Shown here piece by piece: positions 29,300-31,360 of a DNA stretch of 35,009 bases. The notes below the pieces were generated by a model. It worked only from the letters and a program-made list of their open reading frames with translations. It searched no databases and was not told the origin of the DNA. This DNA is from Actinomycetes bacterium (GTDB lineage Bacteria; Actinomycetota; Acidimicrobiia; Acidimicrobiales; Bog-793): the NCBI GenBank assembly GCA_021796455.1, contig JAKACA010000012.1:1-35009 (forward strand), read 5' to 3'. Made by a program: the position numbers and the translations under genes. Each line of letters opens with the position of its first letter. Position 1 is the first letter of the stretch.

Positions 29300-30979
29300 T
29301 CAATGCACGAACGGGCTGAAGACCTTTACGCCGACGATCACGACGGCGACTATGACATAAGCCCGAAGGCTGTAGACGCTGGCAGTTCGCAGCAGTGTCT
29401 GGTGGGGGCGCTCGAGGAGTGCCACCGGCGGCATCCTCCAAGTCTTGCGGTCAAGTCCGCTCACCGCCGCGCGCGGGTCAGTCACCTTGCCTGCGGCAAC
29501 GGCCCGCCGCCGCGCCACGATCACGACTGGCGCCACCACTACCGCAATCAGTCCGCCAGCTCCGAAGCACACCTCGGTCAGCTTGACCCCGTTGATCGTC
29601 GAGAACAGCGTCGAGATCGTCAGATCCAGCGACAACACGATCAGGATGCCGACGATCGTCACAGCAAAGAAATTGAGGACCCTGCCGTTTACCCAGGGAC
29701 CGAGAACCGCCGGGTCATTGCACAACAGCACGAGGAAGAGGCTGGCCGAGGGAAGCAGGATGCCCGCGAGCACCTGAACGTATTGGGTGAGCGTGCCCAG
29801 CAGCGCGTTCGATCCGAGGGCAACGACCAGACAGGCAGCAAAGATCTGCAAGGCATATGCGCCATAGAAGACCGGCGCCGTGCGGATCGTGCGGTGAAGG
29901 GAGTGATGCTGGTTGAAGCTGTCCCCGAACGCATAAGAGGTGGAGAGCGAAACAGCACCGGCGCCAACGAGGGCGGCAACGACGAGCATGACAGCGGCGA
30001 GCGCTCCGGCGACTGGCCCGAGCGTGACGGCGACAGCGTGGTTGAACCAGCCTGAGTCGACGTACTTCGCGGCGGGACCGAAGGCCTTGGTGTGGAACAA
30101 CGAAGCGCCCAACACGATCATCCCGGCCGCGGCGACGGTGGTGAGGATGCCTCCCCCGAACGTGTCCATGCGCTCGTAGAAAAGCCAGCGCGGGCTGATG
30201 CGCTTGTCTATGACGTTGGACTGCTGGAAGAACAGCTGCCACGGTGCCACGGTCGTGCCGATGAGCGCGACGATCAGCAGGATCCCCGTACTGCTCACGC
30301 CGCCGGCCATGCCAGGCAGCACCAAGTCTCTCCCTATAGGTCCCCAACGGGGGTGGGCCAGGAGCATCGCGGGGACGAAGACGAAGCTCGCGAGGATGAC
30401 GGCGAACATGAACCGCTCCCACCAGCGGAAGCGACCGGTCGCGGCGATCCCGAAGAGCAAAGCCCCGGCGCCACAGACGCTTAGCAGCTTCGGGACGCCG
30501 AAATAGCCAAGGCCGAAGTAGACGCCGATGAACTCGGTAAGAAGCGTCAAGAAGTTCAAGACAAAGAGGTCGATGACCGAGAATGCAGCCCAGTTGCGAC
30601 CGAAGCGCTCCCTGATGAGGCGGGCGTGCCCGACACCGGTCACAGCCCCGAGGCGCGACACCATCTCCTGGTTGATAAGAAGCACGGGCAGGAGTATGAG
30701 CATGACCCACAAGAGGCTGTAACCGAAGTGCTGTCCGGCCTGGGTGTAGGTCTGTACCCCACCGGCGTCATTGTCTCCGACCATGACGATGATGCCCGGG
30801 CCCATGATCGCGGCGAGGGTGAGCAGCTTGCGACCGAAGGTCTTCCGGGCGTCGTGGTCATGCATCGAGACCGTCCCGAAGGCTCCCTCGATGTCGCCGA
30901 TGTGGGCGGGGTCGATGACGCCCGGAGCAAAGTCGAGGCCTGTTTCGTCAAGTACTGCGGTGGAGTCGTGCAGGGGCAC
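29300..30979 (-). CDS. Nramp-related divalent metal transporter with atypical metal site (NRMT-like)
   Basis: GPGIIVMVGDNDAGGVQTYTQAGQHFGYSLLWVML (TM1) and GTTVAPWQLFFQQSNVID (TM6) align to Nramp TM1 and TM6. GTG start after AAGGAGGTGACC. Confidence 0.88.
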   Translation of the reverse strand: MPLHDSTAVLDETGLDFAPGVIDPAHIGDIEGAFGTVSMHDHDARKTFGRKLLTLAAIMGPGIIVMVGDNDAGGVQTYTQAGQHFGYSLLWVMLILLPVLLINQEMVSRLGAVTGVGHARLIRERFGRNWAAFSVIDLFVLNFLTLLTEFIGVYFGLGYFGVPKLLSVCGAGALLFGIAATGRFRWWERFMFAVILASFVFVPAMLLAHPRWGPIGRDLVLPGMAGGVSSTGILLIVALIGTTVAPWQLFFQQSNVIDKRISPRWLFYERMDTFGGGILTTVAAAGMIVLGASLFHTKAFGPAAKYVDSGWFNHAVAVTLGPVAGALAAVMLVVAALVGAGAVSLSTSYAFGDSFNQHHSLHRTIRTAPVFYGAYALQIFAACLVVALGSNALLGTLTQYVQVLAGILLPSASLFLVLLCNDPAVLGPWVNGRVLNFFAVTIVGILIVLSLDLTISTLFSTINGVKLTEVCFGAGGLIAVVVAPVVIVARRRAVAAGKVTDPRAAVSGLDRKTWRMPPVALLERPHQTLLRTASVYSLRAYVIVAVVIVGVKVFSPFVH

Positions 30980-31218
30980 GGGGTCACCTCCTTGTTGGGC
31001 AGGTGAGGCAAGAACGCCGAGGCGCCTTAGGCAACGAGTTAGATGGGGTCACGGTCACCTGCCGACGCAGGCACCGTTAGATCAAGCTGGGAGTACCGCC
31101 AGGGATGACAGCCGCCCGTGCGCGCTCGCCGCCCGCGCGCGCCGCCTGCCGAGCGGGCAATACCGTCCAAAGCCGCCCAGGAGGGCGAAAGCGACGGAGT
31201 GTGAAACCAGTCGGCCCC

Positions 31219-31275
31219 TCAGCCGACTCGGGGACTGGGAGGTTCGCTACTTCGCTTGCACTTTGTGCGGGACAT
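31219..31275 (-). CDS. Candidate 18-aa leader peptide upstream of the Nramp-related gene
   Basis: AAGGAGGTGACCGCT-ATG; peptide MSRTKCKRSSEPPSPRVG; same SD string as the downstream transporter. Confidence 0.5.
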   Translation of the reverse strand: MSRTKCKRSSEPPSPRVG

Positions 31276-31360
31276 AGCGGTCACCTCCTTCTGCCGGCTT
31301 CTCGTAGCTACATCATAGCGCGCCGGTCCCGAGTGCTCGCCCGAGGCCCCGCGTTCACTG

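Follow-up and report, generated by a model that had tools for sequence, protein, structure and literature searches.

In E. coli and Salmonella, the gene of the Mg2+ importer MgtA is preceded by the short ORF mgtL. The MgtL peptide is completed when Mg2+ is ample, whereas at low Mg2+ ribosomes drop off at the EPDP stretch, the RNA is changed and Rho-dependent termination is prevented (PMC11282234). MgtQ is an 8-residue ORF located between mgtC and mgtB in Salmonella. The ribosome is destabilized at its early Asp and Glu codons, which frees the ribosome-binding site of mgtB from a stem (PMC8092293). In the mgtC leader of Salmonella, mgtP responds to charged tRNA-Pro (PMC8092293). In Mycobacterium tuberculosis, the M-box leader combines a translational expression platform with Rho, and its small upstream ORF uORF2 (Rv1805A) is strongly expressed (PMC12810186). 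The NRMT proteins (Nramp-related Mg2+ transporters) were first recognized through M-boxes upstream of their genes (PMC4072509).

Here we analyzed the leader of an Nramp-related transporter gene in an actinobacterial DNA stretch of 35,009 nt (the window). The original prediction, made from the sequence of the window, had described this leader as structured, with an 18-codon ORF proposed as part of a leader-peptide-coupled switch. The ORF, both Shine-Dalgarno (SD) strings, three hairpins, a pair of ATCTAAC heptamers within the leader, and the 240-nt distance on the minus strand between the leader stop and the transporter GTG at 30979 were all located where it had placed them, base for base. The features of the locus are as follows (asterisks in peptide sequences denote stop codons):

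31219..31275, minus strand: leader ORF MSRTKCKRSSEPPSPRVG*, 18 codons, with ATG at 31275 and TGA ending at 31219; a member of a conserved family of in-frame short ORFs
31279..31290, minus strand: SD sequence of the leader (SD1), AAGGAGGTGACC, read from the sequence
30982..30993, minus strand: SD sequence of the transporter (SD2), a second copy of the string AAGGAGGTGACC, before the GTG at 30979
31234..31245, minus strand: core block Glu-Pro-Pro-Ser (GAA CCT CCC AGT), the family motif
31236-31234, minus strand: AGT, the fixed Ser codon of the family (AGT in all 40 leaders of the set in which the codon was left free)
31209..31228, minus strand: hairpin 1, AGTCGGC-TGAGGG-GCCGACT, predicted by folding across the leader stop codon; the local form of the helix between the 3' half of the ORF and the downstream RNA
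31163..31197, minus strand: hairpin 2, CCGTC...GACGG, predicted by folding; conservation not found
31051..31077, minus strand: hairpin 3, ACGGT...ACCGT, predicted by folding; conservation not found
31312..31317, minus strand: -10-like element TATGAT of a putative promoter, 42 nt upstream of the leader start
29300..30979, minus strand: NRMT-type transporter gene, 559 amino acids (Pfam Nramp, 9e-69; best PDB relative 7qia)

The best structural relative of the window transporter, 7qia, which we take to be EleNRMT, a Mg2+-type Nramp, scored 188 bits, and other Nramp structures scored 59 bits or less. The transporter also scored under the NCBIfam cut-offs for MntH. By these two criteria, together with the M-boxes found before its paralogues, the transporter is closer in sequence to the NRMT branch than to the MntH-type Nramp proteins. 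A second NRMT is encoded in the same genome (L041, G000:C116; 54% identical), with neither the leader nor an M-box in the stretches examined. At this locus and its sister loci, the NRMT gene directly follows a CBS/MgtE_N-like gene, an arrangement common to many NRMT copies, and the two genes likely form a two-gene Mg2+ module.

The M-box (ykoK, RF00380) was not detected in the window leader by a permissive Rfam covariance-model search, nor was it found in the window genome. The Mn2+ riboswitch yybP-ykoY was absent even among the permissive matches to the window leader, and Rfam as a whole gave no convincing match to it. Both riboswitches, which the original prediction had singled out for checking, are thereby excluded for this leader. 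The same search recovered M-boxes upstream of NRMT copies in sister genomes at 109-138 bits, so the method works on these sequences. Among 122 NRMT upstream regions, 59 carried the leader (loose scan, see below), 20 carried an M-box (sequence signature), and none carried both (Fisher p 4e-7; the loci are related by descent, so this and the other p values of the family statistics are optimistic). The M-box signature was borne out by Rfam at all nine loci run, none of the leader loci examined with Rfam had an M-box, and ten leader-bearing genomes had no M-box anywhere. Many NRMT copies, including the paralogue in the window genome, carry neither element.

A second recurring NRMT leader was also observed. 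It consists of GGAG(G)AGCNC followed by CTG AGC GCC GAC... (MSADRGTPHQP.., MSTDGWLPDQL.., MHADSGSP..), its CTG start is apparently invariant, and it occurs alone or downstream of an M-box (loci L004-L009, L014, L015, L017-L019, L021, L022, L025, L026, L029, L030, L043, L048, L050, L056, L061, L064, L068, L073, L074, L076, L084 and L091). This arrangement resembles the M-box-plus-uORF layout of M. tuberculosis.

The conservation of the leader ORF was examined in the 122 unique NRMT upstream regions, which come from one order (taken as Acidimicrobiales, since the named relatives of the transporter are from MAGs labelled Acidimicrobiales, Acidimicrobiaceae or Actinobacteria). The strict motif test called for an SD sequence followed by an ORF 7-45 codons long whose first 18 residues include [EDKNRQ]P[PHR]S; the Ser codon was left free. 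Forty regions were positive, compared to a mean of 0.28 (maximum 3) for dinucleotide shuffles and 0 for reverse complements, which places the 18-codon ORF beyond chance. The Ser codon of the motif was AGT in 40/40 of these leaders, against a background of 2.9% AGT among the Ser codons of the transporter genes at leader loci. The looser scan, in which CTG starts were allowed and AGT or AAT was required, yielded the 59 leaders mentioned above. By construction of the scans, every family member has an SD sequence.

When no frame was imposed, 43 motifs shared the frame of an SD-spaced ATG, GTG or TTG, and 8 did not. Among these eight, seven belong to the family f23, which has an apparent CTG start (CTG AAA CCC CCT AGT ACC, MKPPST) and for which the scan had chosen a start further upstream; the eighth is L061. 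The spacing between start and motif differs among loci, always by whole codons. Substitutions at third codon positions exceeded those at first and second positions in three of six groups, and the remaining three were flat or reversed. The first proline of the motif (Pro1) is encoded by all four Pro codons, with a leaning of the Pro codons to CCY and CCA, and is followed by P, R, H or S, while Pro1 itself and the AGT codon are constant. Since proline is retained as a residue and serine as a codon, both the peptide and the nucleotide sequence appear to be constrained. In 17 of the 59 leaders, R, H or S stands in place of the second proline, which does not fit the consecutive prolines of a polyproline (EF-P-dependent) stall leader, and an acidic residue precedes Pro1 in only 27 of the 59. 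Rare codons (AGT, CCT, CCA, AAA, GAA) cluster in the motif block.

The window ORF, an SD-led ORF of 7-45 codons with an in-frame P-[PHR]-S(AGT) before a Mg2+ transporter gene, belongs by sequence to this leader-peptide family, whose core is Glu/Gln/Lys-Pro-Pro-Ser with AGT as the Ser codon. Profile models miss the window leader, which has a longer N-terminal spacing; its placement therefore relies on motif, frame, SD sequence, AGT codon and orthologues of like layout. The orthologues of the window transporter at 77-78% identity carry the leaders MSRSQRRGEPPSPLACR (L142) and MSSEPHSSQPPQPRPGVSKRFS (L141 and L002). A DNA search with the window leader returned only short low-complexity matches, and the leader DNA is not conserved in the orthologues. 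In the orthologous leaders, the ORF and its motif are retained, but no conservation was found for hairpins 2 and 3 or for the ATCTAAC pair. No prior description of the motif or of leader peptides of actinobacterial corA, mgtE or NRMT genes was found in the open-access literature, and the family is apparently undescribed.

The family was also found upstream of other transporter genes. From the leaders, a sequence-only model was constructed and searched against 345 genomes of the class. It identified the same leader (MKSGEPPST.., MPASEPPST.., MRRRSDPPSP..) before genes with MgtE_N/CBS domains (PRC/MgtE_N/CBS), and MKSQPPSTYR* upstream of a CorA gene (Pfam 6.5e-57). In the phylum, a second model and an exact pattern revealed MRSEPPSRRPRGAAPSHTR* before an MgtE gene, and MSSSQPPSPR* and MSGEPPSRRPRS* each before a CorA gene. 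In the family f114, an exact pattern occurred in 19 of 151 genomes and the reversed-pattern control in none; all 19 matches encode MSSQPPSTS* or near variants of 9-13 residues, and all are upstream of corA. The occurrence of three unrelated kinds of transporter behind one leader is the strongest reason for linking it to Mg2+. This conservation before NRMT, MgtE_N/CBS, MgtE and CorA genes strongly supports the predicted leader-peptide-coupled switch on a Mg2+-type transporter, for which EPPSP had been considered the telling stretch. Among 20 NRMT operons without the leader at NRMT, none was found to have it before the CBS-type gene. In the order around G846, there was no further match to the model, which also misses the leader of G846 itself, so this blank result says little.

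Several other matches were recorded in these searches. The variant leader MSTGEHPSSCSS.. at L190 (G465:C62), with the order H-P-S and the AGT retained, lies upstream of an ABC transporter permease gene, which is a possible further target of the family. At L249 (G837), a hydrophobic ORF of 28 residues, MSRYVAPLSFTLAAVWVAVVFVLAGGGH*, comes after the leader MRDSDPPSRGRAVRQPR* and may encode a small membrane protein. At L202, L211, L212 and L215, which belong to two unrelated lineages, the block (e.g., GTG AAG TCG GAA CCT CCC AGT AGC) forms the extreme N-terminus of proteins resembling YbeY. The ybeY gene is often upstream of corC, and corC is linked to Mg2+; the block in these proteins could be either chance or an in-gene form of the element. 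The weak profile-model matches L187, L196-L198, L200, L201, L213, L214, L216 and L217 were judged to be chance, as were the pattern matches L245 and L248.

The full 329-nt window leader folded no better than its shuffles (z -0.77). In contrast, the segment with the ORF (31305-31204) had a folding z of -2.4, with 3 of 200 shuffles equally good, and hairpin 2 (segment 31218-31155; z -1.2) and hairpin 3 (z -1.7) were weak. The claim of a structured leader is thus sustained for the ORF segment but not for the leader as a whole. Because the leader DNA is not conserved in the orthologues, comparison lends no support to hairpins 2 and 3 or to the repeated heptamer; as proposed parts of the switch, they are neither conserved nor clearly above chance. 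In the predicted window fold, GGAGGU of SD1 pairs with ACCUCC of the Glu-Pro-Pro codons, a hairpin spans the stop codon, and SD2 forms a local pairing with the CACCU immediately 5' of it.

A single structural signal was general in the family, a helix between the 3' half of the ORF and the RNA just after it (mean z -1.0 at 49 loci, compared to -0.17 at random positions in the same loci, p 9e-5, and -0.08 in leaderless intergenic regions, p 6e-6). The position of this helix is conserved, and the sequences of its arms differ among families yet remain complementary (ACCTCCGGAT/ATCCGGAGGT in L104, CGCCCCCG/CGGGGGCG in L100, CGCGTCCGGCCC/GGGCCGGACGCG in L131 and CCCCGGCGTC/GACGCCGGGG in L143). In the window alone, this helix was not significant. 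SD2 tended only slightly to be sequestered across these loci (mean z -0.38). No clear enrichment was seen for base pairing between SD1 and the motif or between either SD and the interior, and a general anti-SD was not found. Two candidate explanations were rejected. Pairing of SD1 with the EPP codons as the cause of the conserved CC-CC bases was discarded, as it is not enriched in the family. The idea that SD1 and SD2, sharing one string, compete for a single anti-SD, on the lines of the M. tuberculosis M-box model, was also dismissed: SD pairing was weak, and the identity of the two SD strings, which had been noted at the window locus, did not prove to be a general feature (permutation p 0.10 across the family).

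A TAnnnT element was present upstream of the leader start at 37 of 44 loci (20 expected), most often at a distance of 41-50 nt, and no -35 consensus was found upstream of the leaders. With such a -10-like element, the leader ORF would be the first feature of the mRNA. No intrinsic terminator was found in the window leader, which leaves translation or Rho as the means of any attenuation. At L118, L119, L125, L129, L130 and other f23 loci, an upstream mini-ORF ends with [VL][QL]RG[STP]F*, and its TGA overlaps the proposed CTG start (CTGA), which suggests translational coupling of the mini-ORF and the MKPPST leader.

We propose, with a probability of about 0.6, that the translated leader ORF is a cis-acting, translation-dependent regulator of Mg2+ uptake, similar to MgtL and MgtQ but apparently not a member of either group, because its motif can do without an acidic residue and keeps AGT as its one Ser codon. 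This proposal draws on sequence conservation and on analogy. Located at the transcript's 5' end, the short ORF would act in cis on the Mg2+ transporter gene, with the Pro-(Pro/His/Arg)-Ser(AGU) block as its working part; this block mostly lies early, in the first 4-14 codons. Ribosomes loaded at the leader SD would pause or drop off at this block to an extent set by cellular Mg2+. After an early stop, the 3' half of the ORF would be available for pairing with the RNA that immediately follows it, and a full run would melt this helix. The folding choice may then determine access to the ribosome-binding site of the transporter, Rho-dependent termination, or both. On the model of MgtL and MgtQ, the transporter would be turned on when translation of the leader is aborted early at low Mg2+. 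Since Pro1 and AGU are constant and the acidic residue and the second proline are replaceable, we infer that the block acts as a slow, Mg2+-sensitive Pro-x-Ser(AGU) decoding step. A bolder version, which we put forward tentatively and consider possible rather than probable, is that of a phylum-wide Mg2+ sensor. Here the ribosome itself would sense Mg2+, as decoding of AGU after a prolyl residue would fail at low Mg2+, in a codon-specific manner and not via acidic residues, in units as small as nine codons (MSSQPPSTS*).

The leader shares with MgtL a short ORF before a Mg2+ importer gene, a putative Pro-containing trouble spot in the first codons and, as proposed, the refolding of downstream RNA, and those family members with EPPS also have an acidic residue before Pro. 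The two differ in the motif (EPDP in MgtL, [EQKNRD]P[PHR]S here); the new family has no acidic requirement, and its Ser codon is fixed as AGU. There is also no homology or synteny between them, and they occur in different phyla before different transporter families. MgtQ is likewise a very short ORF, similar in size to the 9-residue corA leaders, and the logic by which its early abortion frees the ribosome-binding site of the next gene is the one proposed here. Unlike the new leaders, MgtQ is driven by Asp2 and Glu5, is intergenic and lacks a conserved Pro-x-Ser(AGU). The M-box regulates the same gene families from upstream, including NRMT copies in sister genomes, but is a structured aptamer without a peptide, is absent from the window and the leader loci, and is mutually exclusive with the leader. 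Rv1805A, too, is a small upstream ORF of an actinobacterial Mg2+ leader, and it is conserved and has an invariant proline (PMC12810186). However, it lies behind an M-box and is reported as mycobacteria-specific (PMC12810186); it is set beside the new family by description only.

The fixed AGT, despite the six codons available for serine, and the leaning of the Pro codons to CCY and CCA reveal a constraint at the nucleotide level. The conserved block could accordingly be an RNA or DNA element, e.g., a small aptamer or a protein-binding site composed of GGAGG and CCNCNNAGUACC, with the ORF incidental or secondary, and at some loci SD1 can indeed pair with the CC-rich codons. We regard this as unlikely: the distance between start and motif shifts by whole codons from ATG, GTG or TTG starts (43 in frame), Pro1 takes all four codons, residue 2 varies among P, H, R and S, there is no enrichment of SD1:motif pairing, and Rfam gives no match. 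The grouping of the rare codons AGT, CCT, CCA, AAA and GAA in the block would also suit classical attenuation by the supply of charged tRNA, in which the leader reports proline or serine (via the rare AGU) instead of Mg2+, with the tRNA-Pro response of Salmonella mgtP as a precedent (PMC8092293). This is quite unlikely, as one or two Pro codons and a single invariant AGU are far below what amino-acid attenuators contain, and the targets are Mg2+ transporters of three families whose leader alternates with the M-box.

We consider it improbable that the products of these ORFs are functional small proteins and not regulatory leaders. Their N-terminal residues are conserved, and Rv1805A shows that such an ORF can be strongly expressed in M. 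tuberculosis (PMC12810186), but the residues after the motif are unrelated among families, many peptides have only 9-13 residues, and a codon is fixed. A chance ORF among ordinary hairpins in a GC-rich intergenic region is hardly credible. The full leader lacks DNA conservation and folds like its shuffles, yet this explanation is already contradicted by the 40 positive regions against 0.28 expected, by AGT in 40/40 and by the empty reversed-pattern control.

With the leader ORF as a translation-dependent regulator, the translating ribosome would probably adjust Mg2+ uptake where the M-box is absent. In the open-access literature, we found no explanation for how Mg2+ uptake is tuned in Actinobacteria without an M-box, and this leader may offer one. 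One leader family on NRMT, MgtE-type and CorA genes provides a ready list of genes that are likely co-regulated, and it supports Mg2+ as the substrate of the leader-bearing NRMT copies. With 9-18 codons and one fixed codon, these leaders would constitute a minimal system for asking how the ribosome measures Mg2+.
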